A stretch of DNA of 33,875 nt from Oerskovia rustica. GTDB lineage: Bacteria; Actinomycetota; Actinomycetes; Actinomycetales; Cellulomonadaceae. Made by a program: the position numbers and the translations under genes. Below, piece by piece: positions 14,551 to 33,128 of this stretch. The first letter of the stretch is position 1; each line of letters begins with the position of its first letter. The notes beneath the pieces were generated by a model. That model was not told where the DNA came from and did not search any database. It was given only the letters and a program-made list of their open reading frames with translations. Where the stretch lies: the NCBI RefSeq assembly GCF_014836555.1, contig NZ_JACSQQ010000016.1:1-33875 (forward strand). The letters are read 5' to 3'.

Positions 14551-15380
14551 GCCTCGCGACGACCGACCTGCGCGTCGGCTACGGCAAGCGCGACGTGCTC
14601 CAGGGCGTCGACCTCGAGATCCTCCAGGGCGAGCTCACGGTCATCGTCGGGCCCAACGGCTGCGGCAAGTCGACCCTGCTGCTGTCGCTCGCACGCATCC
14701 TGCGACCCACCTCGGGGACGGTCGAGCTCGACGGGCAGGTCGTCACGTCGATGCCTCCCCGAGAGGTCGCCAAGCGGCTCGCGTTCCTGCCGCAGGCCCC
14801 CGTCGGTCCCGACGGCATCCGGGTGCGCGACCTCGTGGCCCGCGGACGACACCCGCACCAGGGCTTCCTGCGTGCGCTGTCGGCCGAGGACCACCGGGTG
14901 GTCGACGAGGTGCTCCTCGCCACGGACACGCTCGACCTGTCGACCCGGCGCGTGAGCGAGCTGTCCGGCGGGCAGCGCCAGCGTGTGTGGATCGCCATGG
15001 CGCTCGCGCAGGAGACGTCCCTGCTGCTGCTCGACGAGCCCACGACGTTCCTCGACATCGCGCACCAGATCGACGTCCTCGACACGTGCGCGCGCCTGCA
15101 CGACGAGGGCCGCACGGTCGTCGCGGTCCTGCACGACCTCAACCTCGCCGTCCGGTACGCGACCCAGCTCGTCCTCATGAAGGACGGAGCGGTCGTGGCC
15201 CAGGGGCGCCCCGAGGAGGTCCTGGACGCCGACGTCGTCCGGCGCGTGTTCGGGATCCGCGCCCACGTCGTGACCGACCCCGAGGGCTGGCCGCTCGTGG
15301 TCCCCGTCCGCTCCGACGTCCTGGCCAGGCGTTCGCCCGCGCGCACCAGCGCACCGCACCCCGCCGGAGGAACCGCATGA
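14547..15380 (+). CDS. Ferric-siderophore ABC transporter ATPase (FepC type)
   Basis: The ATP-hydrolysing subunit for ferric-siderophore uptake at the cytoplasmic face of the membrane; 277 residues. Walker A GPNGCGKST is at 35-43, the signature LSGGQRQR at 139-146, and Walker B LLLLDEP at 159-165 with Glu164. The switch HDLNLA starts at 196. The ARGRHPHQG stretch at 98-106 is typical of the FepC/FecE/FhuC group. No permease partner (FepD/FepG) is found in the window; it must lie elsewhere or beyond the right edge. The start overlaps the hydroxylase stop (ATGA). The last 25 residues (Arg/Pro/Ala-rich) are poorly conserved. Confidence 0.93.
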   Translation: MSLATTDLRVGYGKRDVLQGVDLEILQGELTVIVGPNGCGKSTLLLSLARILRPTSGTVELDGQVVTSMPPREVAKRLAFLPQAPVGPDGIRVRDLVARGRHPHQGFLRALSAEDHRVVDEVLLATDTLDLSTRRVSELSGGQRQRVWIAMALAQETSLLLLDEPTTFLDIAHQIDVLDTCARLHDEGRTVVAVLHDLNLAVRYATQLVLMKDGAVVAQGRPEEVLDADVVRRVFGIRAHVVTDPEGWPLVVPVRSDVLARRSPARTSAPHPAGGTA

Positions 15381-15628
15381 CGCACCCGACCTCGACCATC
15401 ACGCGCGAGCAGGCGCTCGCGGACCTCGCCGACGTCCTCGGCGCGGGCGGCTCGGCCGCGCACGAGATCGGGCTCGACGACGACCTGACCGACCACGGCC
15501 TCGACTCGGTGCGGCTCATGGCACTGCTCGAACGCTGGCGCGCCGCGGGCCGGCCGGTCGAGTTCGCCCAGGTCGCGGTCGAGCCCACGCTGCGCGGCTG
15601 TCTGCGCGCGCTGGGCGTCTCCGCCTGA
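15377..15628 (+). CDS. Free-standing aryl carrier protein (ArCP)
   Basis: An 83-residue carrier that holds DHB as a thioester for NRPS1. The phosphopantetheine site is Ser44 in DHGLDSVRLMALLERWR, nearly the wording of the EntB carrier domain (YGLDSVRMMALAARWR). VEFAQVAVEPTLRGCLRAL continues the same alignment, so this is the missing C-terminal half of EntB/DhbB as a separate gene. GGAGG lies six bases before the ATG, which overlaps the ATPase stop (ATGA). No phosphopantetheinyl transferase is present in the window to activate it. Confidence 0.92.
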   Translation: MTHPTSTITREQALADLADVLGAGGSAAHEIGLDDDLTDHGLDSVRLMALLERWRAAGRPVEFAQVAVEPTLRGCLRALGVSA

Positions 15629-15740
15629 GGCGGGCCGCCCGCACCGTCAGCACCGCCCACCCAGCGCCGCCCCGCCGGCCCACGCACCACCTCCGATCCG
15701 CCGCACGACCTGGCCAGACCACCTCAAGGAGAACCCCAGC

Positions 15741-16769
15741 ATGTCCAGCACCCGAACCCTCACCACCGCACGTGGTACCCGGACCTCCCGCGCGACCGCC
15801 TGGCTGCTCGTCCCGGCCCTCGCCGGGGTCCTTGCCGTGGGCGGGTGCGCGGGCGGCACGTCGGCGGCCGACGAGTCCGCCGGTTCCTCGGCCGAGGCGG
15901 GCACCCGCACGGTCGAGACCGCGTTCGGGAAGGTCGACATCCCCGTGGACCCGCAGCGCGTCGTCGCCCTCGAAGGCGGCACGGGGCCGCTCCTCGAGGC
16001 GGGCATCGTGCCCGTCGCGACCGCGGACGGCGACTGGGCCGAGTCGTACCTGCCCGAGGAGTTCGAGCAGGTCGCGGACCTGCCGATCGTGATGGGCGCG
16101 GACGGGTGGGACTACGAGAAGATCGCGTCGCTGGGGCCCGACCTGATCGTCGGGTTCGTGCGCGGCGGCAAGGAGGAGGAGCTCAGCGCCGAGAAGAAGG
16201 CCGACTTCGACAAGCTGTCGCAGATCGCCCCGACCGTGCTCATCCGTGCCACGGGCTCGGCGACGGTCAAGGACGCGTCGGTCGAGATCGCGACGGCGCT
16301 CGGAGCGGGCGAGGAGGCCGAGGCGACGAAGGTCGAGTACGAGGCGCGCGTCGCGGAGATCAAGGAGACGTACGGCGACGTCATCGCGGCCAACACGTTC
16401 GCGGGGCTCGACTCGTTCGAGGAGATCACGGTCTACTCGCAGATCTCCTGGATCGGCGGCATCCTCACGGACATCGACGCGCCCCTGCCGAAGGTCGTCG
16501 CCGAGGAGACGACCGAGAACGGTGCGTTCCTGTCCTACGAGCAGCTCGGCCAGGTCGCGGACGCGACCGTCGTGCTGACCGAGCAGACGGTCGACGGCCG
16601 GCCCGGCCCCGGCGCCGAGGAGCTCGAGGCCGCCTCGACCTACCAGTCGCTCCCTGCCGTGACCGCGGGGCACGCGTACGGCATCCGCTACTTCTTCGCG
16701 GACCGCTACAGCCTGGCGCTCGACGTCCTCGACCAGCTCGAGGTCGTGCTCGAGGACCTCCAGGGCTGA
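15741..16769 (+). CDS. Ferric-siderophore-binding lipoprotein (FepB/FecB type)
   Basis: The extracellular receptor that hands the ferric siderophore to the ABC permease. The 342-residue protein has a basic N-terminus, a hydrophobic core ([13 protein letters not shown]) and a lipobox VGGC with Cys36 as the lipidation site. A Gly/Ser/Ala spacer leads into a class III periplasmic-binding fold. Typical opening and central phrases are [33 protein letters not shown] and [16 protein letters not shown] lies nine bases before the ATG. A 112-nt gap upstream holds no clear promoter. Its stop TGA shares one base with the ATG of NRPS1. An uptake gene placed directly before the synthetases supports a self-contained make-and-retrieve operon. 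Confidence 0.92.
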
Positions 16770-19700
16770 TGACGACGTCCTCCGCCCCCGACCTCCTGCC
16801 GTCCGGCGCCGCTCCGACGGGGCAGGCCGCTCCGACGGGGCAGGCCGTGCCGGTCCTCCCGGTCGCGCCGGTCCCAGCCGCGCCGCGCTCCGCGACGGCG
16901 ACGCCCGCGGCCTTCCCGCTCACGACCGCGCAGCTCGGCGTGATCGGCGCGCAGCTCGTGCGCCCCGACACGTCCGCGTTCGCGGTGGGCGAGGTCGTCG
17001 AGATCACGGGCGAGGTCGACATGGGCGTGCTGGCGCTCGCCGTCGAGCTGGTGGTCGGGGAGACGGAGGCGATGCGGACGGCGTTCGTGGTGTCGGACGA
17101 CGTCGCGCAGGTCGTCCACCCGGCCGGCGGTCCCGCGCTCACGAGGGCGCGCGCGGACGCCGTGACCGGCGGCGTCCGGGTCCTCGACCTGTCGAGGGTG
17201 CCCGACGCCCGGGAGCGCGCGGCCGCTCTCGTCGAGGCGGACCGGGCGCTGCCCTTCGCGCTCGACGTCCCGGGCCTGGCCCGCCAGACGATCGTCCGCC
17301 TCGACGCCACGACCGTGTGGTGGTCCCTCGTGGTGCACCACGCGATCCTCGACGCGTACGGGATCACGCTCGTCGTGCGCCGCGTCGCCGAGGTCTTCAC
17401 CGCGCTGACCTCGGGGCGCGACGTGGGCCCGAGCCCGTTCGGGAAGGTCGCGGACGTGGTGGCCGAGGAGACCCGCTACGCGGCGTCCCCCGAGCGGGAG
17501 CGGGACAGGGAGCGCTGGGCCTCGCGGGTGGGCGTCCTCGACGGCGGTCCCGGGAGCTTCAGCGAGGGGCCGCTCGCGGAGACCGTCGCCGGTCCGGTGC
17601 CGGCCGACGCCGTGGTGCGCGTCGCGCACGACGTGGGCTGCGCCGTCGGGCCGCTCGAGGAGGTCGCCGCGCGGTCCGGGGCCGGCTGGCCCGACGTCGT
17701 CGCGGCCACCTTCGCGGTCCACCTCGCCCTCGTCGCGGGGCGTCGCCGCGTGAGCGTCGCGATGCCCGCCATGAACCGCATGGGGTCGGTCGCGGCGGTC
17801 GTGCCGACCATGCGGGTCAACGTCCTGCCGGTCGTGGTCGACGTCGCACCCGGGCAGCGCGTCGACGAGCTCGTGACGCAGGTGCGCGAGCGCGTGGGCG
17901 AGCTGCGCCGCCACGGGCGCTACCCGGCCGAGCAGATCGTGCGCGACGCAGGCTCGGCCGTGACCGCGGCCGAGCTCAACGTCAAGCTCTTCGACCACGA
18001 CCTGCGCTTCGGCGCCGCCGTCGGCCGGCTGCGCAACGTGGCCGAGGGACCCGTCGACGACCTCGCCGTCTCGGTCGTGCGCGTCCCCGGGCCGGACGGC
18101 GACGAGCTGCGCCTGGCGGCCACCGCGCCCGCACACCTCTTCACCGCGCCCGACGTCGCCGCTCGCCTGCGCGAGCTGGCCCACCTCCTCGAGAGCGTGG
18201 GCCGGGCCGCGCCCGACGCGCGGGTCGGGAGCCTCGGCCTCGCGCCCACGGCGACCGAGGTCGCGATCGTGGCCGCCTCGACCGGCCCCGCGCTCCCCGG
18301 TGACGCGCTGCCCCGGCTCGCCGGGTCGCTGTTCGACCAGGCCGTGACCCTGCGCGGGGACGCCGTGGCGCTCGTCGCGCGCGAGACCTCGACGTTCCGC
18401 GCGCTCGACGAGGCCGTCGCGCACCTCGCCGGACGCCTGGTCGCGGCCGGCGCCCGCTCCGACACGCTCGTCGCGATCGACCTGCCGCGCGGCACCGACT
18501 ACGTCGTGACCCTGCTCGCGCTGCACCGCTGCGGGGCCGCCGCGCTCCTGCTCGACGACCGGACCCCGCCCGCGCGACGCCTCGCGCTCGTCGACCGGCA
18601 CGAGGCACGGCTCGTCGTCGCCGACGTCACGGCCGCTGCCGGCCCGTCCCTCCACAGCGGCGACGGCTCCCTGTGGACGGGACGCGTCGTCGTCGGGCCG
18701 CGCGGGGACGCCGCCGCCCGGGGCGAGACGCCCCTGTGGCACGCGCTCGACGTGCCCCGCGACGCGCTCGCCTACGTCCTGCACACCTCCGGCTCCACGG
18801 GCGAGCCCAAGGCCGTCGGGATCAGCCACGGCGCGCTCGCGCAGTTCCTCGCCTACCACCAGGAGCACGTCGTGCCGCGAGCGGGGCGGTACCCGGCCCC
18901 GGCGCAACGCGTCGCGCAGACCATGCCGCTCGTGTTCGACGGCTCGTGGGACACGCTGCTCACCCTGCTGCTGGGGCACGAGCTCCACCTGCTCGACGTC
19001 GAGCAGTACCGCGACCCCGGGACCCTCGTGGACCTCGTGGTCGAGCGCGGCATCCACCGCCTCGACCTCACGCCCACCGTCATGTCGGCCGTCGTCGAGG
19101 CCGGGCTGTTCGAGCGCGAGCACGTGCTGCGGACCGTGTCCGTGGGCGGCGAGGCCTGCCCGCCCGCGCTGTGGACCACGCTGCGCGCACAGCCGGGCCT
19201 CGACGTCCTCAACCTGTACGGGCCCACCGAGTACACGGTCGACGCCGTGGGTGCGACGGGCGACGACGCGGACCGACCCGTGATCGGGCGACCGCTCAGC
19301 GCGACCGCTGCTCTGGTGCTCGACCAGCACCTGCGGCCCGTGCCCGACGGTGTGGTCGGTGAGCTCTACCTCGCCGGCCCCCAGCTCGCGCGCGGCTACC
19401 TGCGCCGCCCCGACCTCACGGCCGAGCGCTTCGTCGCGAACCCGTTCGGGACGGCGGGGGCGCGCATGTACCGCACGGGCGACCTCGCGCGCCGTGACGC
19501 CGACGGACTGCTGCACTACGTCGGTCGGCGCGACCACCAGGTCAAGATCCGCGGGTTCCGCGTCGAGCCCGGCGAGACCGAGGCCGCGCTGCTCGCGCTG
19601 CCCGGCGTCGTGCAGGCGACCGTGCAGGCGCGCAGGTCCGCGCTCGGGGCACGTCTCGTCGCGTACGTCGTGGGCCCCGGGCTGGCAGGCGACGCGCTGC

Positions 19701-20266
19701 GCGCGGCGCTCGCGGACGTGCTGCCCGAGCACCTGGTGCCCTCGGCCGTCGTGGCGCTCGACGCGCTGCCGCTCACGACCAACGGCAAGCTCGACGTCGC
19801 GGCGCTCCCCGAGCCCGCGACTCCCTCGCCGAGGGTGACGGACCCCGCCGAGGGTGACGGGAGCGCCCGCCGAGGGCGACCGGAGCTTCCGCCGACGGTG
19901 ACCGACGTGTCCCTCGCGTTCGCCTCGGCCCTCGACAGCGGCCCCGTCCCGCCCGACGCCGACTTCTTCGCGCTCGGCGGCGACAGCATCCGCGCGATCC
20001 ACGTCGTGGCACGACTGCGCGAGAAGGGCTGGCGCTCGAGCGTGCAGGACGTGTTCGAGCAACGCACCGTCACGGGGGTCGCGGACAGGCTGCGGCCCCT
20101 CGAACCGGTCGCGTCGCCCGCTGCCCCGCCCGCAGCGACGACGCACGCGGCGAGCGCCACCCCCTCGGACGCGGCAACCCCGCTCCTCGACCTCGCGCCC
20201 GGCGACCTCGACCGCCTCGGCGCACTCCTCGGCGACCGCCGACGCACACGGAAGGCACGACCATGA
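16769..20266 (+). CDS. Siderophore NRPS 1: C-A-T
   Basis: It condenses DHB from the aryl carrier with the first amino acid. The protein has 1165 residues. C covers about 50-470 with HHAILDAYG at 190 (His191 and Asp195 present; the usual DG is DA). A covers about 520-1015 with [12 protein letters not shown] near 670, LYGPTEY, YRTGDLA and NGKLD. T has LGGDS with Ser1073. By alignment to GrsA PheA the specificity residues read D-G-D-D-S-G-L-V-D-K. I do not recognise this code; acidic residues at 239, 278 and 331 suggest a basic side chain (inference). The tail [16 protein letters not shown] looks like a donor docking helix. The first 45 residues hold an exact 18-bp tandem repeat and the A-T linker holds a 22-bp-period array. 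The ATG overlaps the lipoprotein stop. Confidence 0.93.
16811..16846 (+). repeat. Exact 18-bp tandem duplication at the start of NRPS1
   Basis: Two perfect copies (16811-16828 and 16829-16846) beginning GCTCCGACGG, read as [12 protein letters not shown] in the Pro/Ala-rich N-terminal extension before the C domain. It is in frame and unrelated to the 22-bp family. Confidence 0.9.
19827..19904 (+). repeat. 22-bp-period array A (4 units) in the A-T linker of NRPS1
   Basis: Cores GAGGGTGAC at 19831 and 19850, GAGGGCGAC at 19872 and GACGGTGAC at 19894; spacings 19, 22 and 22 bp. Each core is preceded by CGCC. Codons read RVTD, AEGD, RRGRP and TVTD, that is, different frames of the same DNA (residues about 1020-1046). 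Confidence 0.85.
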
Positions 20267-23200
20267 GCTCGACCGAGGCCATCGAGGCCGTCTGGCCCCT
20301 CACCGCGCTGCAGCGTGCGCTGACCGCGCACGCGGGGCTCACCGACGGCCACGACCCGTACGTGGGGCAGACCCTCGTCGAGCTGCGCGGCCCGCTCGAC
20401 GGTCCCGCCCTCGAACGCAGCCTCGACGCGCTCCTCGTGGCCCACCCGAACCTGCGTGCAGGGTTCGCGGTCGACGACGACCTGGACCCGGTCCAGTTCG
20501 TCCCCATCCAGGCCACGGCCGAGGTCGTCTGGTACGACGCGGACGTCCCGGGCTCCGTGGGTGCGGATACTGGCGGGCGAGGGGGCGCGGGCGGGGCCTC
20601 TGGCGCAGGCGAGGTGGGCGCCGACGACGCTCTCGGGGCCGACCGTGCCCTGCGGGACGCTGCCCGTGCCGCGGCCGAGGCCGAGCGGTCGCTCCCGTTC
20701 GACCCGGCCGACCCGCCGCTCGTGCGCTTCGGGGTCGTCTCGCTCGGCGCGGAGCACCACGTGCTGGTCGTCACGAGCCACCACCTGGTGCTCGACGGTT
20801 GGTCGATGCCGTTGCTCGTGCGCGAGGTCGCGCGGCTCTACGGGGCCGAGCTGTCCGCCGAGGGGGACGAGCCCACCCGCCGAGGGCGACCGGGTCTCGC
20901 GCCGACGGTGACCGACCCGTCGCCGACGGTGACCGACTCGCCCGCCGAGGGTGACGCCCTCGCCCCCGCCCGGGGCCGGTTCGTCGACCACCTCGTGTGG
21001 CTGGGACGGCAGGACGCCGACGCAGCACGCGCGCACTGGCGAGAGGCCCTCGCCGACGTCGAGCCGTCCCGCTGGCCCGTGGCCGACGCGTGGACGGCGA
21101 CGGGCGGAACGCCCTCGGACGCGTTCACGACCCACCGGACCCTCGGCACGACCGCCGTCGAGGCGATCCGCAGTGGAGCCCGCGCCCAGGGCGTCACGTC
21201 GGCCACGCTCGTACGCGCCGCCTGGGGCCTGACCGTCGCGGCCCACTCAGGCTCGAGCTGCGCGACCTTCGCCGTCCCGGTCGCGCTCCGCAGCCCCGAG
21301 GTCGAGCACGCCGACGAGATCGTCGGGATGCTCACCGAGTCGGTCGTGGCCCGCGTCGACGCCGACGCCGCCACGACCCTCGGTGAGGTCGTCGCGGACC
21401 ACTCCCGCCGGTGGAACGCCTCGTGGGAGCACCAGCACGTCGGGCTGCGTGGCATCCAGGCGGCGACAGGGTCCGAGACGCCCGTCGCGACGACGCTCGT
21501 GTCGTTCGAGCAGGCGCCCGGCGCCGGCGTGGTCGCGCCGACGATCGTCGGCCTCGACCCCGTGCGCCTGCGCGTGCTCGCGACCCAGGACGACACGCAC
21601 TTCCCCCTCGCGCTCGCGGTCGACGCCGGACCCGACACGTGGGACCTCGCCCTCGACGCGCACGCGGCCGCCTTCACGTCGACGGCCGCCGACGCTCTCC
21701 TCGCGACGTTCGAGCGGATCCTCCTCGCGAGCGCCACGACCCCGGGCGCGCGGGTCGCGGGCCTCGACCTGGTCCCGCGGCGTCCCGCCGCCCCGACCTC
21801 GGGCGGTGCGGCCACCGCGTCCACCCCGGGTGCACCCGCCGCGTCGGCCGCCGCCCCGGCAGCCGGCCTGGCGGCCGACACAGCAGCCGCCCCGGCAGCC
21901 GGCCGCGCACCGACGAGCCGCCCGGCCCTCGTGACCGAGGTCCTCGCCGACTCGATCGCGCGCCACCCGCACGCGGGCGCACTCGTCGTGGGGGACCGAC
22001 GGTGGACGTTCGCCGAGCTCGACCTCGCGGTCACGCGCGCCGAGCGTCGCCTCACGGCGTGCGGGGCCCGGCCGGGCGACGCGCTCGCGATCGACCTGCC
22101 GCGCGACGAACGGATCGTGCACGTGATCCTCGCGGCCCTCCGCCGCGGCCTGGCCGTGACGCCCCTGCCGCACGGGGCGCCCGAGCGCCGCGCGCACGTC
22201 CTGCGGATCAGCGGTGCGCGGCTCCTGTGGGACGAGGACGGGCCGCGCCCCCTCGACGCCTCGCCCGTGCCCGGCGGCAGAGCGACGGACGCACCCGGGG
22301 CGAGCGCCGCCGTCGGGCACGACGACGCGCCTGCGGCGTCCCGGACGCCCGAGCCGAGCACCGCCGTCGGGCACGACCTGCCGCCCGCCCCCGACGCCGC
22401 GACCCTGCGCGCGTGCGTCGGCAGCATCATCTTCACGTCCGGATCGACGGGCGAGCCCAAGGGCGTGGCCGTGGGCCAGGACGCGCTCGCGCACCTGCTG
22501 GACCGGCATCGCACCGAGCTCTACCCGGCGGGCGAGCGTCTGCGCGTCGCGCACACCGCGGCGTTCTCGTTCGACGCGCACTACGACGCGTTCCTCGCGC
22601 TCGCCGCGGGCCACGAGCTGCACGTGCTCGACGAGGACGTGTTCCTCGACCCGGTCGCGCTGCGCGACTACGCGGCCGAGCACGCGATCGACTACCTCGA
22701 CTTCACGCCGACCGTCTGGGGTGCGTTGCTCGCGGGCGCCGACTGGACGCGTCTGCCGCGGATCTGCGTCGCGGGCGGCGAGGCGTTCGGGCCCGCGCTG
22801 TGGACGCGGATGCGTGAGCTCGCGGCGCGCACGGGCGCGCGCGTCGTCAACCTGTACGGGCCGACCGAGGCGACCGTCGACGCCCTCGCGGCCGACGTCG
22901 CGGACACGGCCGAGCCCGTCGTCGGGCGACCCGTGGGACGCACGCAGGCCGTGGTGCTCGACGCTGCGCTGCGCGAGGTCCCCGCAGGCACCGTGGGCGA
23001 GCTGTACCTCGCGGGACCGCAGCTCGCCGAGGCGTACCTGGGGCGCGCGGGCCTGACCGCGAGCCGCTTCGTCGCCCGGCCCGGCGGGGTCCCGGGGGAG
23101 CGCATGTACCGCACGGGCGACCTCGCGCGCCGCGCCGAGGACGGCACCCTGAGCCTGCTGGGGCGCAACGACGACCAGATCTCGCTGCACGGGTTCCGGA

Positions 23201-26200
23201 TCGAGCCGGGCGAGGTCGAGCAGGCGCTCGTCGCGCTCGACGGTGTGGCCGAGGCTGCGGTCGTGCTCGCCGAGCACCCGCGCTGGGGTGCTCGGCTGGT
23301 GGCGTACGTGACGGGAGCTGGGCTGGACCCGGACGTTCTGCGTGCCGCGGCGGGCGAGCGTCTCGCGCGGCACCTCGTGCCGACCGCGTTCGTCACCCTC
23401 GACGCCCTGCCGCTCACGCGTCACGGCAAGCTCGACCGCCGTGCGCTGCCCGCGCCCGACTGGGACGGGTCGCGGACCTCCGGGGGCGGGGCCGGAGGCG
23501 TCGGTACCGCGTCCGTCGGGCGGCCCGCTGCCGAGCCGACGCCCGTCGAGGCGCAGGTCCGCGCGGCCGCCGCGCGCGTCCTGGGCGGGGAGAACGTGGG
23601 CCTCGACGAGTCCTTCTTCGCTGCGGGGGGCGACAGCATCGACGCGCTCCAGCTCATCGCCGCGCTGCGCCGCGAGGGGCTCGTCCTCTCGCCCGCGGAC
23701 CTGTTCGCGGCGCGCACGCCGCGCGAGATGGCGCGGCGCGTCCGGCCCGACGGCGCCGCGTCCGGGTCCGTCACCTCGGGTGCGGGTGCGGGTGGGGCCT
23801 CCGAGGTGCTCGTGGCGCTGACCGCCGCGCAGGCTGTCGCCTTCGACGAGCACGTGCGCGCGGTCGTGGCCGGTGCGTCCCGCGTCGTCGACGTGCTGCC
23901 CCTGACCCCGACCCAGCTCGGCATGGTCGCCGAGGCCGCGCGTGACGCGGCCGACGCGTACCGCACCACGACCCGGTTCACCGTGACCGGGCTGGGCGAC
24001 GACGGGACTGCGCGGGTCGTAGGCGCTGTGCAGGCGCTCGTGGGCCGCCACGCGAACCTGCGGGGCGGCGTGCTCCAGCTCGACCTGCCGGCGCCGGTCT
24101 TCTTCGTGCCCGATGCTGCCCGGGTTCTCGTCGCCGAGCACGACGGCCGCGGGCTCGACCCGGTGGCGCTGGCCGCCCTGCTCGACGAGGTGGACCTCAC
24201 CGAGCGTTCGCGGCTGGGCGACCTGTCGCTCGCGCCGCTCGTGTCGGGCGCGGTCGTGCGGACGGGCGAGGACGAGCACGTCCTGGTCCTCGCGATGCAC
24301 CACCTGCTGACCGACGGATGGTCGGTGCCGCTCCTGGCGCAGGACCTGCGGAGGACCCTCACGTCGGACGCTGGGTGGGGTGCTGGGCCGGGCGGGCCGA
24401 CCTTTCGTGACTACCTGACGTGGCTGCGCGACGCAGAGTCCACCCGTGCCGAGGTCGAGGCCCTGTGGCGGGCGGAGCTCGCCGGGCTCGAGGAGCCGTC
24501 GTTGCTGGGCGTGCACCATGCCGGCGCGCCGACGGTGACCGACTCGCCCGCCGACGGTGACGCTCGTGTCGTCACGACGCTCCCCACGGGAGCGGAAGGA
24601 CTCCGCGTGGCTGCCCGTCGCGCCGAGGTCACGCCCGCGACCGTCGTCCAGACGGCATGGGGCCTCGTCGTCGCGGCGCTGACCGGGCAGCCCGAGGCCG
24701 TCGTGGGCTCGACGGTCGCGGGTCGCCCGACCGACCTCGACGGCGCCGATCGCATCATCGGCATGTTCGTGAGCTCGTCGCCGGTCCGGGTCCCGGCCGG
24801 CGCGCACCTCGCTGCCGACGCGCTGCTCCAGGACGTCCAGGCGCGTCAGGCCCGCCTGCTCGACGCTCACCACGTGGGCCTTCCGTCGATCGCACGGATC
24901 GCCGGTCACTCGCTGTTCGACACCCTCGTGGTCGTCGAGAGCTATCCGCGCGGGACGGCCGCGGTCGCCGTCGGCGGTGCTGCGGTCACCCTCGACCCGA
25001 GTGCCGGTCACCCTCGACAGGCAGGCACGTCACCCTCGGGGGGCCGGCACGTCACCCTCGGCGGGCAAGCACGTCACCCTCGGCCCGTCGACGTCGTTCC
25101 CACCGGCGGACACGACGCGACGCACTACCCCGTGACCGTCACGGTCCTGCCCTCCGCGGACGGCGGGCTCACGATCGAGATCGAGGAGCGTCCCGGCACG
25201 CTCGACCCCGCGGTCAGCGCCGTCCTCCCGGCCGCGCTCACCGCGGCGGTCGAGCACCTGGCCCGCGGCGGCGCCCTCCCGACGGCGCACGCCCTCGTCG
25301 GTGAGGTGCGCGTCCCACGCCCGGCCCCCGCCGAGCCCGCCCCCCGCACGGAGTCCCGGCCCGCACCCCGGGCCGACGCCCAGGGTGACGCGAACGTGCC
25401 GACGAGCGGCGCCGTCGGGCCGCACGACCACCACGCGGACGAGCGCACCGAGCATGTCCGTGCCGAGATCGCCCGCGTCCTGGGCGACGACGTCGGCCCG
25501 ACGACCGACTTCTTCGCCGCGGGCGGCGACAGCATCAGCGCGATGCAGCTCGTCGGCGCGTTGCGCGGACGGGGGCTGTCCGTGACGGTCGGGGCGGTCT
25601 TCGCGGGCCGCACGGCCGCGGGCATCGCCCTCGCCGCGACCGAGGTCGCGCCCGCTCCCGCGCGACCGGCCGCCCGCACCGCGGACGTCGCCGAGTCGGG
25701 CGACCTGCCGCTCACCCCCGCGCTCGCGTGGCTCCTGGAGACCGGTGGCGACCACCGCGGGTTCGTCCAGGTGCGCGTCCTGCGCACGCCCGCCGGCCTC
25801 ACCGAGGACTCGCTGCGGGCGGCGCTCGCGGCCCTCGTGGAGGCCCACGGCGCACTGCGTCTCGCGGTGCACGACGGCGCCGCGCGCGTCCTCGACGCGG
25901 CCTCACCCGCCGTGGTGGCCGGGTCGGGCGACGTCCTGCACGTCACCGACGGCCCTCTCGCCGAGGCGCTGCGTGGCGCGGCGGCGCAGGTCGACCCGGC
26001 GACGGGCCGGGTCCTGCGCGCGGTCTGGGACCGGGGGACGCACGAGCTGGCCCTCGTGGCTCACCACGTCGCGGTCGACGCCGTGTCGTGGCGCATCCTC
26101 GTGGACGACCTGCGGACGCTCGTCGCGGGTGGTTCGTTGCCGCCCGCGTCGTCGAGCCTGCGGGCCGCGGCGTCCGCCATGCACGACGAGGCCGCGCACC

Positions 26201-28899
26201 GGGCGGGCGAGCTGCCCGCGTGGGTCGACGTGCACTCCGGCGAGGCCGTCTCGCTGACGGCTCGACCGCTCGACCCGGCGCTCGACACCGTGTCGAGCGC
26301 TCGCGAGGTCGTCGTGCGTCTCGGTGCCGACGACACCCGGCTCCTGCTGGGACTTGCCCCCGAGCACCGCACGGACCACGTGCTGCTCGCGGCGCTGTCG
26401 CTGGCCGCGGCGGACGTGGCGGCCGCCGGCGTGGCATCCGACGCGGCATCTGACGTGGCGCCGGGCGCGGCGCGGGCCGGCGCGGACCTCGTGGTCGAGA
26501 CCGAGGGGCACGGGCGACGTCTCGACGGCGAGGGCCCGGACCTCTCGCGCACGGTCGGCTGGTTCACGACCACCTGGCCGCTGCGCCTCGCTGCCGTGCC
26601 CGGAGCCACGCCGACCGCGCACCTGCGAGCCACGTCCCGCCAGGCCGCCGCGGTCCCGGGCGACGGCCGGGCGTACGGCCTGCTGCGCCACCTGGCGCCG
26701 GGCGCGTCGGCGGCGTTGCGCGACGCCGCGGCAGCCTGCCCGCCGCAGGTCCTCGTGAACTACCTGGGGCGTGAGACGGAGAGCGGCGACGACTGGGGGA
26801 GCGTGGCCGACGCCGCGCACGTCGAGTCCGCGCTCGGCCTGCACGCCGACCTGCCTCTGTCGCACCCGGTCGAGCTCAACGCGTACGTGGCCGACGGCCC
26901 GGTGCCCGAGCTCGTGGCGCGCTGGATCCTGGCCCCCGCGGTGACCGGGAACGGTGAGGCGTCACCCTCGCGGGGCGAGCCGGTCACCCTCGGCGAGGGC
27001 GTCGGCTCGTTCGGCGAGACGCTGGTCGAGGCGTGGGTCCAGCACCTGCGCGCGCTCGTCCGCGGGGCCGTCGCCGAGGCGGGCGATCCCACCGTCGGCC
27101 CGGCGACGACGATCCCCGCGGGCGCTCCGTGGCCGCTCACCCCCGTCCAGCGCGGCATGGTCCTGCACGCCCTGGAAGCACCGGTCGACCGGTACACGAG
27201 CGCGATCGACGTGGGGCTCGACGGCCCGCTCGACGTCGCCGCGCTGCGTGCCGCCGCGGCCGACGTCCTCGCGGCCCACCCGCAGCTCCGCCTCGCGGTC
27301 GCAGCACGCGGCCCGCAGGACGTCGGGCTCGTCGTCACGGACGTCACCGAGGTCCCGCTGCACGAGGTCACGCTGCCCGACGACGTCGCTCACCCGGACG
27401 CCGTGCGCCGAGCCCTGGGCGAGATCATGGCCGACGAGCTCGACCGTCCGTTCGACCTGGCGCGCCCGCCGCTGCTGCGGCTCGTCGTCGTCCGGGTCGG
27501 CTCCCACGAGGGCGCCCGGCACCGGCTGGTCGTGACCAACCACCACGTGCTGCTCGACGGCTGGTCGGTGCCGTTCCTCGTCGACCTCCTGCTGGGGGCG
27601 TACGTGCGCCGCGTCGGTGCACCTGCGGGAGCGACGCCGTCCGGCTCGCCGACGGGGCTGGTCCTGCCCACGCCGAGCACGGCCTGGCAGCTCTCCCGGC
27701 GCCTCGCACGGCGCGACACCGGCGCGGTGGACGTGTGGCGAGACGCCCTCGCCGGGGCGCGGCCCGTGCGCGTGGCCGAGCCCGAGGACACGGGTGAGCG
27801 CCCGGCCGTCCTGCACGCGACGCCCGAGGGCCTGGGCACCCGGCTCGTCGCGGCCGCACGGGCCGCGCAGGTCACGACCGCCGACGTCGTGACCTCGGCC
27901 TGGGGGCTCGTGCTCGCCGCCCTCACGGGGGAGAGCGACGTCCTCACGGGCACGACCGTCGCCGGGCGGCCCGCGGAGATCGAGGGTGCACACGACGTGC
28001 TCGGGATGTTCGTCAACACGGTGCCCGTGCGGATCGCGGTCCGGGGGCCGGGGGACAGCACGGCCTGGACCCTCGCGGACCTGGTCCGCTCGGTCCACGA
28101 GCGGCAGGCGGGCCTGCGGGACGTCGACCACGTCGGGCTCGCGGACGTGCAGCGCGCGCTCGGGGTCGGCGAGCTGTTCGACACGCTGCTCGTGGTCGAG
28201 AACTACCCGCGCGACGCCGACGCCCAGCCCGGCGCCGGGGCCGGGCTGCGGATCACGGACGTCCAGGGCGACGACCGCACGCAGTACCCGCTCGCGCTGA
28301 CCGTCGACGCGTCCGAGGGGCTGAGCGTGCAGCTCGACCACCTGGCGTCGGTGCCCGCCGACCGGGCCGGGGCGGCGCTCGCGGCCGTCGTCGACGTGCT
28401 CGGGCTGCTGGCCGACGCCCCCTCGACGCCCGTCGAGGACGTGCTGGCCGGGCTCGCGGAGCGACACCCGGCGTTGTGCGAGCGCGCATCGGCAGGGCAG
28501 CGCGGGGGCGTGGCCTCCACGGCGGACGCGCCGGAGGGCGCGCCCGTCGGCGTCGTCCGTGAGGTCTTCGCCGAGGCGCTGGGCGTGCAGCGCGTGGCCG
28601 ACGACGACAACTTCTTCGCCCTGGGCGGCGACTCGATCGTCGCGATGAAGGTCACGACGACGCTCCGCGCGCGGGGCTGGACGGTCGACCCGCGCTTGGT
28701 CTTCGCGGCGCCGACCCCGGCCACGCTCGCCGTGCGGGCCCGCCTCACCGCCGTCCCTGCCACGACCGCCGCCGTGTCAGGACCAGCGGCCCCTCGCGAC
28801 CCCGCTGGTCCTGACAGCCCCCCGCTCGTCTCCCCGCTCCTCGCGATGTCCGCGAGCGAGCTCGGCGACCTCGACGACCTGATGAGGAACCTGACATGA
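20263..28899 (+). CDS. Siderophore NRPS 2: C-A-T-C-T-E-C-T with two A-less modules
   Basis: A 2878-residue megasynthase. C1 at 1-500 (HHLVLDG from 173). A at ~550-1060 ([11 protein letters not shown] near 723; LYGPTEA; YRTGDLA; HGKLDRR). T1 Ser1125. C2 at ~1205-1690 (HHLLTDG from 1346). T2 Ser1757. E at ~1810-2260 ([10 protein letters not shown] from 1934, EGHGR 2081-2085, NYLG from 2166). C3 at ~2285-2720 (HHVLLDG from 2427). T3 Ser2791. The tail [16 protein letters not shown] resembles a donor docking helix. T2 and T3 follow short linkers with no trace of an A domain. The single A domain reads D-A-D-D-V-G-L-V-D-K, close to that of NRPS1, and its A8 segment is QISLHG instead of QVKIRG. E is intact, so residue 3 should become D and C3 should be a D-donor type. 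It overlaps both neighbours by ATGA. Four 22-bp-period arrays lie inside. Confidence 0.93.
20856..20957 (+). repeat. 22-bp-period array B (5 units) inside the C1 domain of NRPS2
   Basis: Cores at 20860 (GAGGGGGAC), 20882 (GAGGGCGAC), 20904 and 20925 (GACGGTGAC) and 20947 (GAGGGTGAC); spacings 22, 22, 21 and 22. It falls at residues 198-232, in the loop after the HHxxxDG helix. Its unit order overlaps that of arrays A and E. Confidence 0.85.
21850..21904 (+). repeat. Duplicated 19-bp segment, 36-bp period, in the C1-A linker of NRPS2
   Basis: A 19-bp sequence starting GCCGCCCCGG occurs at 21850-21868 and 21886-21904 (identical), coding for AAPAAG in an Ala/Pro linker. This is an ordinary low-complexity linker repeat. 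Confidence 0.8.
22301..22377 (+). repeat. Duplicated 23-bp segment, 54-bp period, in the A domain of NRPS2
   Basis: 22301-22323 and 22355-22377 differ at one base and both encode AVGHD in a Pro/Ala/Ser-rich insertion just before the A3 motif. It is a separate family from the 22-bp-period arrays. Confidence 0.75.
24527..24562 (+). repeat. 22-bp-period array C (2 units) in the C2 domain of NRPS2
   Basis: GACGGTGAC at 24531 and 24553, each after CGCC, 22 bp apart; read TVTD then ADGD (residues 1422-1434). Confidence 0.8.
24985..25094 (-). repeat. 22-bp-period array D (5 units, inverted) in the C2 domain of NRPS2
   Basis: GTCACCCTC occurs at 24985, 25007, 25029, 25051 and 25073, exactly 22 bp apart each time, with 13 variable bases between. 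It is the reverse complement of the forward cores. The protein reads VTLD, GHPRQ, SPSG, VTLG and RHPR, stepping through the three frames (residues 1575-1611), just before the conserved THYP segment of the C domain. Confidence 0.93.
26961..27004 (-). repeat. 22-bp-period array F (2 units, inverted) between E and C3 of NRPS2
   Basis: GTCACCCTC at 26961 and 26983, 22 bp apart, read as SPSRG then VTLGEG (residues 2233-2248). Confidence 0.8.
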
Positions 28900-31800
28900 C
28901 CACGACCGACGAGCGCACCACCCCCGCTCCCACGATCGCCGAGGTCCTGCCCCTCGCCCCGCTCCAGGAGGGTCTGCTCTTCCACGCCGTCTCGGAGGAC
29001 ACAGGCCTCGACGTCTACACGATGCAGTCGACGTACCGGTTCCCGGGCGGCGTCGACGAGCCCGCGATGCAGCGCGCGTGCGAGTCGCTGCTGCGGCGGC
29101 ACGCGGTCCTGCGCGCGGGCTTCGCGCACGAGCGCTTCGCGCGCCCGGTGCAGTTCGTGCCCACGGCGGTCACGGTCCCGTGGCGGGTCCAGGATCTCTC
29201 CGACCTCGTCCTCGCGCGGCCCGACGACTACACCTCCGCCCTCGACCGGCTCCAGTACGACGAGCGCCAGCGCCGCTTCACCATGGACCGCCCGCCGCTC
29301 ATCCGCTTCGTGCTCGTGCGGCTCGGCGAGCAGGGGGCCGCGCTCGTCGTCACGAACCACCACATCCTGCTCGACGGCTGGTCCGACGCGCTGCTCGTGA
29401 CCGAGCTCCTGCGGCACTACGCCGCGGGCGGCGAGGACGCGAGCCTGCCGCCCGCCCCGCAGTTCCGCGACTACCTGGCGTGGGTCGCGGCGCAGGACGA
29501 CGACGCCGCGGCGACCGCGTGGGACGTCTCGCTGGCGGGCCTCGCGGAGGGGACGCTCGTCGCCCCGCCGGACCCGCGCCGTCGGGCCTCGATGCCCGAG
29601 GTCGTCGAGCGGGACCTCGACCCGACCCTCTCGCTCGCGGTCCTGGCCCTGGCGCGCACGTGCGCGGTCTCGGTCAGCACGGTCTACTCGGCCGCGTGGG
29701 CGCTCGCGCTGCGCTCGGTCACGGGGAGCGACGACATCGTGTTCGGCAGCACGGTCTCGGGTCGCCCGCCGGCGCTCGCGGGCGTCGAGGAGATGGTCGG
29801 GCTGTTCCTCAACACCGTGCCCGTGCGGCTCGCGACGCGGCCTGGGGAGCCGTTCCGCGACCTGGTGCGCCGCTTCCAGTCGGAGCAGGCCGAGCTCATG
29901 GACCACCACCACGTGAGCCTGGGCGAGCTGCAGCGCCGGGCGGGCGTCGGGACGCTGTTCGACACGCTCTACGTCATGCGCAACACGCCCGAGGACGACG
30001 CCGAGCTCGACCGCCTCAGCGCGGCCGTGGGCCTCGAGGACGTCGAGGGCGGCGACGCCACGCACTACCCGCTGACGTTCGTGGTCCACCCCGGGCAGCC
30101 GTACCGGCTGATCCTGTCGCACCGCACCGACGTCGTGGACGCCGCCCGGGCGCATGCCCTGCTCGACCAGGTCGAGGCCGTCCTGCGCCGCGCGGTGGGC
30201 GAGCCGGGTGCTCCGGTCGCCCGGGTCGCAGCGGTGACCGACGACGTCGCGCCCCTCCTCCTGTCACGTGGCGTCCGCTCGGCGCAGGACGTCGGCGACG
30301 ACTCGTTGCTCGACCTGCTGGACCGGGCCGTCGCGGCCCACCCGCAGCGCACGGCGCTGGTCCACGGCACCGACTCGGTGACGTTCGCCCGGCTCGGCGA
30401 GCGCGTCGACCTGCTCGCGCGCGCACTGGTCGCGGCCGGTGCCGGGCCCGAGGACGTCGTGGCGCTCGCGGTGCCGCGCGGGATCGACTTCGTCGTCGCG
30501 CTGTTCGCGACCCTGCGGGCCGGGGCGGCGTACGTGCCGCTCGACGCCGCGCACCCGGCCGAACGGCTGTGCGCGATCGTCGAGGCGGCAGGTGCGCGCG
30601 CCGTGGTGCTGGACGAGTCGTTCCGGGGTCTCGTGGGGCCGGCACTGGCGGGCCGCGCGGTGGTGCCGGCGCCCCAGGTCCCCCAGGACCTCCAGGTCCC
30701 CCCGACGGCGACGCACCGGCTCGCCGAGGGTGACGGACCCGCCCGCCGAGGGCGACCGGACCTGCCGCCGACGGTGACGGACGCGCCCGCCGAGGGTGAC
30801 GCGAACCCGGCCCGGGGCGACGACCCGTGGCCCGCCTACCGCCACGACCGGCTCGCGTACGTCATGTACACGTCGGGCTCGACGGGTGCGCCCAAGGGCG
30901 TGGCGATCGAGCACGGGGGGCTGGTCAACATGCTGCGCAACCACCGGGCGGAGATCTTCGAGCCGCTCGTGGCCTCCCGCCCGGCCGGGCTCCGGGAGGA
31001 GCCGGTCCGGGTCGCGCACACGGTCTCGTTCGCGTTCGACATGTCGTGGGAAGAGCTGCTGTGGCTCGTCGACGGCCACGAGGTGCACCTGCTCGACGAG
31101 GCCGTTCGACGCGACCCGCACGCGATGGCGACGTACTGCGCGGCGGAGCGGATCGACGTCGTCAACGTGACGCCCTCGGTGTGCTCGGCGCTCCTCGCGG
31201 AGGGCCTGCTCGACGAGGGCCGGTACCGCCCGGGCCTCGTGCTGCTGGGCGGCGAGGCCGTAGGTGCGGAGGTGTGGGACGCGATCGTCGCCACCCCGGG
31301 GACGCGCGGCTACAACCTGTACGGCCCGACCGAGTACACGATCAACACGCTCGGCGGCGGCACGGACGAGAGCCGGCGCCCGACCGTCGGGCGTCCCATC
31401 GCCAACACGTCGGTGTACGTCCTGGACTCCGGGCTCGCGCCCGTGCCCGACGGCACGCCGGGCGAGCTGTACGTGAGCGGGATCGGGCTCGCACGCGGGT
31501 ACCACGGGGCGCCCGGGCTGAGCGCCGAGCGGTTCGTCGCCGACCCGTTCGGGGTGCCGGGTGCGCGGATGTACCGCACGGGTGACGTCGTGCGCCGCAG
31601 GCCCGACGGGCAGCTCGACTTCCTGGGGCGCAGCGACGGTCAGGTCAAGATCCGGGGCTACCGGGTCGAGCCGGGGGAGTCGCAGGCGGTGCTGGCGCGC
31701 GACCCGCGGGGCGCGCAGTGCGCCGTGGTCGCGCGCCGGGGCGCCGGGGGCGGTCACGTCCTCGTGGGCTACGTGGTGCTCGCCGAGGGCGCCGAGACCT

Positions 31801-33128
31801 CCGACGGCGACCCGGCCCTGCTGGCCGACGTCCTGCGGACCATGCGCCGAACGGTTCCCGACCACCTGGTCCCGTCGGCCCTCGTCCCGCTCGACGAGCT
31901 ACCGCTGACGCCGCACGCCAAGCTCGACGTCCGGCGCCTGCCCGCTCCCGACCTCACGCGCGAGGGCGGGCGCGAGCCCCGGACCGACCTCGAGCGCGAG
32001 CTCTGTGCGATCTTCGCCGAGGTCCTGGGCGTGACGACCTTCGGCGCCGACGACGACTTCTACGCCGCGGGGGGCCACTCGCTCCTGGCGATGCGTGCGG
32101 TCTCGATGGTCCGCACGCGGCTGGGGCGCCCGCTCAGCGTCGGCGTCCTCGTGACCGCTCCGACGGTCGAGGCGATCGTCGCGCACTGGGACGCCCCGGA
32201 GACCGACCCGTTCGCGGGCACGCTCACTCTGCGCGCTCCGGCGCCCGGGACCGTAGCAGGGACCGGGACCGCGCCGCTCTTCTGCTTCGCCCCGGCGGGC
32301 GGCCTCGGGTGGTCCTTCGCGTCACTCGTCCCGCACGTCCCGGCCGGGACGGCGGTGCACGCGCTCCAGTCGCCGCGTCTCGCGGGGCCCGACGGCGCCC
32401 CCTCCTCGCTCGTCGACCTCGCCGAGCAGTCGGTCCGGGCGGTGCGCGAGGTGCAGCCGCGGGGGCCGTACCACCTGCTCGGCTACTCGTTCGGGGCCCA
32501 CCTGGCCCACCTGGTGGCGACCCGCCTGCAGGAGGCGGGGGACGTCGTCGCGAGCCTGACGATGCTCGACGCCGAGGCCGTCGTGCCCGGGGTGGGCGGC
32601 GCCGTCGGGCAGGACGGTCACCCTCGGCAGGGGAACGCGTCACCGTCGGCGGGGGGCGGCGAGGTCGACGCCGACGATCTCGCCAGCGTCGAGGTCGACG
32701 CCCTGCGGTCGCTGCTCGCCGCCGGCGGCGCCGACCCCGACGTGGTCGCCGCGCCCACGCGCGACGACGTCCTCGACGTCCTGGCCGACGCGCCCGGTGC
32801 CTGGGGCGACCTCGACGAGGACGGGCTCGCCGCGGTCGTCGACACCTACCTGTACTCGTGCGACCTCATGGGACAGGCCCGCTACACCCCGTTCCGGGGC
32901 GACCTGCTGCTGTTCACGGCGAACGAGGGCGCCGACCGCCCTGACCTCACGGCCCAGCGCGACGCCTGGGCCCCGCACGTGACCGGGACCGTGACCCAGC
33001 ACACGGTCCTCGCAGGCCACCACGACATGGTGTCGCCCGCGGCGGTCGGCCAGCTCGGCCCGGTCCTCGCGCGACACCTGTCCCAGGCTCCTGCGGCCAC
33101 CCGACCCAGCACCGACGAGAGGCACTGA
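28896..33128 (+). CDS. Siderophore NRPS 3: C-A-T-TE, N5-hydroxyornithine-type A domain
   Basis: The terminal synthetase, 1410 residues. C has [15 protein letters not shown] near 14 and HHILLDGWS at 155-163. In [11 protein letters not shown] lies near 658, LYGPTEYT follows, the A8 motif is [13 protein letters not shown], and A10 is PHAKLD with Lys1009 (the usual Gly before Lys is Ala). T has GGHS with Ser1062. TE has GYSFG at 1196-1200 with Ser1198, then Asp1225 (MLDAE) and His1375 (GHHDMVSP), like the EntF thioesterase. The specificity residues read D-M-E-N-L-G-L-I-N-K, exactly the published Orn/hydroxyornithine code, matching the hydroxylase upstream. TE may hydrolyse, cyclise or oligomerise the product; the sequence cannot tell. 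Arrays E and G lie in the A domain before A3 and in TE. It overlaps NRPS2 by ATGA. Confidence 0.94.
30704..30813 (+). repeat. 22-bp-period array E (5 units) in the A domain of NRPS3
   Basis: Cores GACGGCGAC 30704, GAGGGTGAC 30726, GAGGGCGAC 30748, GACGGTGAC 30770 and GAGGGTGAC 30792; every spacing is 22 bp. Residues 603-640, immediately before the A3 phosphate-binding loop. Confidence 0.9.
32617..32660 (-). repeat. 22-bp-period array G (2 units, inverted) in the thioesterase of NRPS3
   Basis: GTCACCCTC at 32617 and GTCACCGTC at 32639, 22 bp apart, read GHPRQ then SPSAGG (residues 1241-1256). It lies after the strand carrying the catalytic Asp1225, in the region expected to form the TE lid. 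Confidence 0.75.

Follow-up and report, generated by a model that had tools for sequence, protein, structure and literature searches.

Short dispersed repeats in bacterial genomes are usually explained by a transposase, as in the case of REPs and their RAYTs, or by DNA uptake. GTAG REPs, BIMEs and REPINs, which go together with RAYT transposases, are dispersed, located at the 3' ends of genes and arranged in inverted pairs. The DNA uptake sequences of Neisseria and Haemophilus are asymmetric boxes of 9-12 bp that form inverted pairs after genes, and the stoperators of mycobacteriophages are asymmetric boxes with many intergenic copies in phage genomes, where they are not known to occur in tandem at fixed phase. 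The nearest described class to the repeats analysed here is that of the CGTC-tagged REPs, to which RPE-4 and RPE-6 belong (Di Nocera et al. 2013, PMC3733652); the term 'Actinobacteria' is absent from the main text of that paper. A literature search at the level of titles and the beginnings of abstracts, in which subscription journals were sparsely covered, found no description of the family of phased boxes that we report here from the genus Oerskovia.

Phased arrays in the NRPS genes of the window

The window, by which we mean the whole stretch of 33,875 nt of Oerskovia rustica DNA that was analysed, contains three adjacent NRPS genes (16769-33128) that are part of a siderophore-type cluster. 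All three are on the + strand: NRPS 1 (16769..20266; 1165 aa) with condensation, AMP-binding and PP-binding domains, NRPS 2 (20263..28899; 2878 aa) and NRPS 3 (28896..33128; 1410 aa) with a thioesterase. The region upstream of them (10026-16769) encodes a chorismate-binding enzyme, an AMP ligase, a lysine/ornithine monooxygenase, an ABC ATPase and a periplasmic binding protein.

A search with the 9-bp core pattern GA[GC]GG[TCG]GAC revealed 26 cores in seven arrays, all within the three NRPS genes; 13 of the 26 are exactly GAGGGTGAC. Sixteen of the 19 within-array steps measure 22 bp, two 21 bp and one 19 bp, and four arrays are on the + and three on the - strand. The first-pass annotation of this DNA had described the same seven arrays, thirteen exact cores, sixteen 22-bp spacings and four-to-three split in orientation; its total of 25 cores was one short, an extra core at 24964 giving array 4 six cores and the window its 19 steps, and three of its four + strand array starts were placed 4 bases early, the other starts agreeing with ours.

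NRPS 1 carries array 1 (19831..19902, +; 4 cores at steps of 19, 22 and 22 bp; residues about 1021-1045), which lies between AMP-binding_C (936-1007) and PP-binding (1055-1108). Four arrays are found in NRPS 2, namely array 2 (20860..20955, +; 5 cores at steps of 22, 22, 21 and 22 bp; residues about 200-231), array 3 (24531..24561, +; 2 cores; residues about 1423-1433), which is within the condensation-domain match (1210-1562), array 4 (24964..25081, -; 6 cores; residues about 1568-1607) and array 5 (26961..26991, -; 2 cores). In NRPS 3, array 6 (30704..30800, +; 5 cores; residues about 603-635) falls within the AMP-binding match (476-870) and array 7 (32617..32647, -; 2 cores; residues about 1241-1251) within the thioesterase match (1127-1380). 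Taking the best stretch per Pfam family, at least three of the seven arrays are therefore inside domain matches, so that the arrays are not confined to linkers.

Exact 22-bp spacing is shown by 16 pairs of cores in the three genes. In 500 synonymous-codon shuffles such pairs averaged 0.54 and never exceeded 3, which rules out codon bias, a possible source that the first-pass annotation had itself named. Elsewhere in the window the core occurs as scattered copies, never closer than 67 bp on the same strand, and scattered single cores are present inside the NRPS genes too. An Rfam search of the window gave 0 matches, ruling out a known RNA family for this stretch. Finally, across 41 arrays that lie within predicted genes in a larger set described below (each orthologue entering as an array of its own), the core is translated in each of the three frames and on both strands; the repeat is therefore DNA and not peptide, as had been proposed from the window, and a peptide repeat can be ruled out.

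The repeat unit and its distribution

The arrays are not an NRPS feature: they are mainly intergenic and most often lie just downstream of a gene. The O. rustica genome (G000; 4.35 Mb) contains 131 two-unit matches with up to two mismatches, compared with 0 for the reversed pattern. Within an unselected 360 kb of contig 2 of O. turbata NRRL B-8019 (G003), of which 88.7% of bases are coding, none of the ten arrays (36 units) is inside a gene and two overlap a gene end, gene predictions in this work being those of a simple custom codon-usage script and not of a published gene finder. The earlier statement that the repeat is found only inside the three NRPS genes thus holds for the window and fails for the genome, and the reading as a family of coding DNA is not supported. 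Our larger set of 169 arrays and 603 units from six species, mostly loci picked for their arrays and with orthologues counted separately, includes 41 arrays that fall within predicted genes. The NRPS genes of five species account for 27 of these; other array-bearing genes include an ABC transporter and a permease-ATPase fusion, in which the array is between domains, and a phosphopantetheinyl transferase, in which it follows the domain. Where two genes stand in tandem, the stop codon of the upstream gene is the closer end for 18 of 22 elements, with a median distance of 18.5 bp. Among 49 intergenic elements, 13 are in convergent gaps, where 5.9 would be expected by length and 9.1 by gap number, and 14 are in divergent gaps, which are not avoided (15.0 expected by length, 12.1 by gap number). 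No gene family was found recurrently beside the O. turbata arrays; among the ten neighbour clusters shown, the largest looked, by eye, like ABC ATPases, NRPSs and permeases, and an array-linked gene family was accordingly dropped as a candidate. Single boxes outside arrays number 12 in the same 360 kb, against a mean of 3.6 (sd 4.8) for 1512 9-mers of the same composition, 63 of which are commoner.

The logo of 399 units from 110 intergenic arrays defines a 22-bp unit made of an asymmetric 14-bp box, CGCCGAGGGTGACG, which is kept, and 8 free bases, which are not; the core letters are invariant partly by construction of the pattern, whereas the CGCC and the trailing G are not fixed by it and are conserved all the same. 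In the 169 arrays, 383 of 434 unit-to-unit steps are 22 bp and 33 are 21 bp, and these shorter steps are about tenfold commoner in genes (26 of 113 genic against 7 of 289 intergenic steps; Fisher p = 3e-10, a value that is too small, as orthologues are not independent). Arrays at separate loci are far more alike in the box than in the 8 bases between boxes, and therefore something appears to act on the box itself. Read on the opposite strand, the unit starts with CGTCACCC; a G at +9 in 77% of the 399 intergenic units corresponds to a C preceding GTC, and hence to a CGTC, on that strand.

Arms of opposite orientation are arranged in one way. Adjacent arrays within 120 bp of each other form 34 inward, 0 outward and 6 same-direction pairs (orthologues counted separately), with centres of 5-7 bp in 17 of the 34 inward pairs, and an opposite box with up to one mismatch lies beyond the inner end in 67 of 166 arrays, compared with 4 on the outer side and 4 after shuffling. 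When merged, the arrays yield 127 elements, each being a single arm in 89 cases, an inward pair in 35 and a same-direction double in 3. A fold-back origin of the two arms was ruled out, since they are not mirror copies (0.576 vs 0.584).

At up to one mismatch, two-unit matches number 89, 3, 20, 233, 49, 34 and 0 in the seven Oerskovia species G000 to G006, which include O. merdavium (G001) and O. enterophila DSM 43852 (G004), and a search of 52 further genomes from this family and order found none. When 396 Actinomycetota genomes were sampled, more than two matches occurred in O. rustica alone, with 1-2 matches in 7 of the 395 others; in a Bacteroidota sample 3 of 394 genomes besides Hoylesella oralis had one match each, fewer than the five genomes matched by the reversed pattern. 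Within these samples, the counts rule out a widespread family with the same box and suggest, within the explanation that we tentatively favour below, a phased box family specific to Oerskovia. All five array-rich species among the seven genomes carry the NRPS cluster, and a 2.4-kb piece of it found no good match in either O. merdavium or G006 (best E 3.5e-8 and 4.9e-6, respectively, with 40 candidates scored in each). The array-poor O. merdavium is the closest relative of the array-rich O. enterophila. Searches of phage and plasmid collections with one O. turbata element returned no match, and so lent no support to an origin from either.

Change between species and the origin of the arrays

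O. rustica and O. turbata group together (FastTree support 0.96 in a 3-kb block), and their NRPS 1 genes have different bases at 9.9% of 775 fourfold sites. Of 34 O. rustica elements considered, 25 could be anchored in the O. turbata stretches that had been retrieved, to which the comparison is limited; at these sites the number of cores is larger in O. turbata in 13 cases, smaller in 4 and equal in 8. At another site the number of units is 1 in G002, 2 in O. rustica and 4 in O. turbata. For the seven NRPS sites and four other species, all 28 length comparisons gave multiples of 3 (three of them zero), as intact reading frames require. The array 1 site is occupied in all five species compared. 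Array 2 is missing from three of the four orthologues (G005, O. enterophila and G002), each of which is shorter by exactly 87 bp and retains one core-like 9-mer that may be either the seed of an array or what is left of one; other empty sites in which a single core is present could likewise have arisen by contraction and not mark a birth. Arrays 3 and 5 each have 2 cores in the window and 5 in O. turbata, the gain of 66 bp, seen twice, being that of three units. The presence in coding DNA described by the first-pass annotation is thereby borne out, in frame and with variation between sister species, and its question of whether arrays keep their positions receives, within the genus, a mixed answer: several are co-located, yet the unit numbers of shared arrays differ at most NRPS sites and array 2 is lacking in three species.

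At six equal-length sites, orthologous identity is 57% in the free bases, 82% in the core and 89% in the flanks (core below flanks, p = 0.016). Change is therefore quicker in the arrays than around them, and quickest in the free bases, and the core is conserved only relative to the free bases and less than the flanks; a separate figure of 96% core identity counts only cores that still fit the pattern. The spacers of an array shared by five species are little changed, so that spacer replacement is local rather than universal and 'hypervariable spacers' was dropped as a general rule. In G005 (L128), the orthologue of L119:765-840 has 22-bp units of a different sequence, near GTCACCGTGGGCGGGTGGCCCG, from which it follows that the phase can persist while the box changes. 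Within arrays, two spacers next to each other are identical in 16% of 203 cases, and 63 of 229 O. turbata spacers have an identical copy in the same array. Together, the differences in unit number at the same sites and the identical neighbouring units in O. turbata show that arrays change where they stand, by gaining and losing whole units.

The explanation that we prefer, with confidence slightly short of even, is that these are REP-like arrays of a phased box, specific to the genus, which gain and lose whole 22-bp units in place and whose box is bound by a putative protein. Under this explanation, an array, mainly between genes, is a single arm or a pair of inward-facing arms with a hairpin or short centre between them, and grows and shrinks in place by whole 22-bp units. 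The box is probably recognised by a sequence-specific protein, to which the units would present themselves about two helical turns apart, and which might either stabilise the arrays or cause breaks or stalls from which units duplicate. Arrays in NRPS and a few other genes would be passengers, surviving only where their net length keeps the reading frame. Several findings count against this explanation: the core is less conserved than the flanks, divergent gaps are not avoided, empty sites that retain one core may be contractions, loci share a palindromic centre and more near-identical spacers than expected, and the donor search described below covered part of the O. rustica sequence. We favour a box-binding protein with local growth and loss because the evidence counts against transposition, pure slippage and selection as RNA hairpins.

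The main rival, a possibility that we consider rather unlikely, holds that a transposase which has escaped recognition copies a miniature palindrome of REP/RPE type into new places, and that tandem units then grow from it. One inward pair, recognisable in five species between the same convergent genes, argues for it: its centre is a perfect palindrome with a 14-bp stem in O. merdavium and G005; O. enterophila and O. turbata have a near-palindrome there, and in O. rustica it has decayed. A second locus has the same kind of palindromic centre. Also consistent with this rival are the location of the arrays after and inside genes, as in REPs, and the clean presence/absence at C33:9035 of O. rustica, where the element is present and the site is empty in the six other species (a difference of 94 bp from G002). 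Published CGTC-tagged REPs have no known transposase (PMC3733652), and by eye the 22-bp arrays of Legionella quateirensis (L014) and Sphaerotilus natans (L060) start at a full CGTC-type hairpin with a stem of 7-9 bp. There is, in addition, some excess of near-identical spacers between loci: spacers within one mismatch of one at another locus number 19 of 76 in O. rustica (11.4 expected), 101 of 229 in O. turbata (75.8 expected; identical ones 41 vs 7.8) and 11 of 52 in O. enterophila (5.6 expected), under a column-wise null that ignores correlations between columns. This excess would fit some exchange between loci.

The searches for traces of transposition itself tell against such copying. Around 127 elements, flanks shared 5- to 8-mers no more often than in a swapped-flank control, giving no evidence for a transposon or MITE with target duplication, and no conserved flanking sequence was found. 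The mobility-enzyme search, which covered the Y1 transposase and reverse-transcriptase families, detected the Y1 (IS200-like) transposase PF01797 in none of the seven Oerskovia genomes, compared with 5 of 14 controls, and reverse transcriptase in none of the seven either; neither a RAYT-driven REP nor retroelement-driven diversification thus finds evidence. No near-identical donor array was seen among the 44 O. rustica arrays sampled, and the best listed match to the 94-bp insertion within its own genome was 82% identical, with 40 of 1455 first-look candidates scored. Moreover, 89 of the 127 elements are single arms, and a stem of 8-9 bp was not found inside the Oerskovia unit, where 446 distinct units show a weak CCC/GGG consensus pairing. 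In the partly sampled sequence, we found no sign that arrays insert as transposon copies, which is absence of evidence; the mobility that the first-pass annotation had proposed is not, in the transposon sense, supported by these results.

A plain minisatellite, whose 22-bp units arise and disappear through slippage in G-rich sequence without any recognising factor or function, appears improbable. It would account for the variation in unit number, for the identical neighbours and for change that is faster than in the flanks, but the copying of whole units should not keep 14 of 22 positions across unrelated loci while the other 8 drift, nor should it yield 34 inward and 0 outward pairs.

At one site (L110:10561-10749), and likewise in O. 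turbata, a long hairpin distinct from the arms (GACCCCGGTGG...CCACCGGGGTC) lies between them; arrays may form around terminators. Least probable of all is that the arrays are terminators or 3'-end stabilisers selected as RNA hairpins of opposite arms: their position after stop codons, this one site in two species and four centres of 31-32 nt that fold at -16.5 to -29.8 kcal/mol would fit, but no compensatory change was found at core position 3 (C opposite G 4, C opposite C 0 in 17 array-type inner pairs, small numbers from which 2 of 19 rows were left out as not array-type), no opposite box with up to one mismatch is within about 60 bp of 36 of 41 genic arrays (5 of the 41 have one) or 63 of 125 others, and pairing within the unit gives no signal where it could be tested. 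Here the two candidate stem pairs with a variable core side pair at 0.534 and 0.186, where column composition predicts 0.557 and 0.199, outer candidate stem positions pair in 16-44% of the 446 units, and the folding energy of units equals that of spacer-shuffled ones; a hairpin within the unit is ruled out to that extent, the covariation test being silent on pairs that contain an invariant core letter.

We also considered whether the phased-box arrays of Oerskovia exemplify a wider phenomenon, that is, a recurrent class of bacterial elements with a lineage-specific box, expanded in place by a box-binding factor, often as inward pairs and compatible with reading frames; at present this is a speculation with the odds well against it. 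Among the matches listed from a whole-collection scan, unrelated bacteria also have 22-bp arrays of the same nine letters, at many places in Hoylesella oralis, a Prevotella MAG and an actinobacterial MAG. The recurrence of the period, and of some inward-facing arrays in the two MAGs, supports such a class, in a scan that preset both box and period, so that the likeness to Oerskovia is not independent evidence. In H. oralis (L131, L132) long arrays of GAGG[TG]TGAC in one orientation recur every 22 bp at many loci, with a well conserved spacer.

Further support comes from Bacteroidota genomes with several loci at 22 bp. Among 395 genomes, G709 and G701 each have several loci with four copies of GTGAC at this period (7 and 2 matches), as G822 and G818 have with four copies of the reversed word (10 and 3); the GTGAC search also matched H. 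oralis, which had been picked for its arrays, and at 23 and 20 bp it gave single matches only (345 genomes). The case is weakened in that, among the 344 genomes common to the searches at 22, 23 and 20 bp, the two words together match two genomes at each period (10, 2 and 2 matches). The repeats of G709 (L165, L168; 7 matches on two contigs) have the form GTCAC-N8-GTGAC-N4, again 22 bp, with orientations that alternate within the unit.

Nothing found for the Oerskovia arrays points to a transposase or to DNA uptake. With a box common to many loci, free bases between boxes, 0 to 233 two-unit matches among seven congeners and NRPS proteins that differ between sister species by whole in-frame blocks, the genus therefore offers a tractable system for studying how short sequences multiply in genomes, be it by copy-and-paste or on the spot, and how such arrays are accommodated by modular enzymes.

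Comparison with described repeats

The Oerskovia arrays share an asymmetric box in many copies between genes with mycobacteriophage stoperators, from which they differ in their tandem arrangement at fixed phase and in that the one O. turbata element searched had no phage or plasmid match. They share the asymmetric box and the inverted pairs after genes with DNA uptake sequences; these, however, show a strong excess of single copies, whereas single Oerskovia boxes are not strongly enriched. Dispersal, 3'-end location and inverted pairs are likewise common to GTAG REPs, BIMEs and REPINs, but the Oerskovia family has no GTAG tag, no palindromic unit and, in any of the seven genomes, no RAYT-type Y1 transposase. 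The comparison with Rickettsia palindromic elements drawn by the first-pass annotation, which on the whole is partly supported, is valid for the in-frame outcome inside protein genes, seen here in the 41 genic arrays, and not beyond it: those elements are palindromic units or dimers from another phylum, and ours are phased asymmetric tandem units.

The closest likeness is with the CGTC-tagged REPs (PMC3733652). Both have the CGTC tag at one end, for which TGTC or CCTC can stand in those REPs and which is on the opposite strand of the Oerskovia unit, and both are short, dispersed and located mainly after genes or between convergent genes and sometimes inside them. The REPs described there, however, have a palindromic stem of 8-9 bp with a loop of 4-5 nt, which the Oerskovia unit lacks, and a short unpaired tail, mostly CCA, for which we see no counterpart: such a tail would show as TGG before the box, but in the unit logo T is nowhere the commonest base outside the core. 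According to the same paper (PMC3733652), head-head dimers predominate and tandem dimers are negligible, whereas Oerskovia has 603 units in 169 tandem arrays (arrays that were defined as tandem); pairs with the tags inward (tail-tail) are rare there and make up 34 of 34 opposite-arm pairs here; and the 22-bp phase is a feature of the Oerskovia arrays. Set beside the six features used to recognise CGTC-tagged REPs, the Oerskovia family thus has the tag and the location and departs in three, namely stem, dimer type and tail. The arrays should not be filed as CGTC-tagged REPs, although they may be derived from one, since the 22-bp arrays of Legionella and Sphaerotilus begin, by eye, at a full hairpin of the CGTC type.
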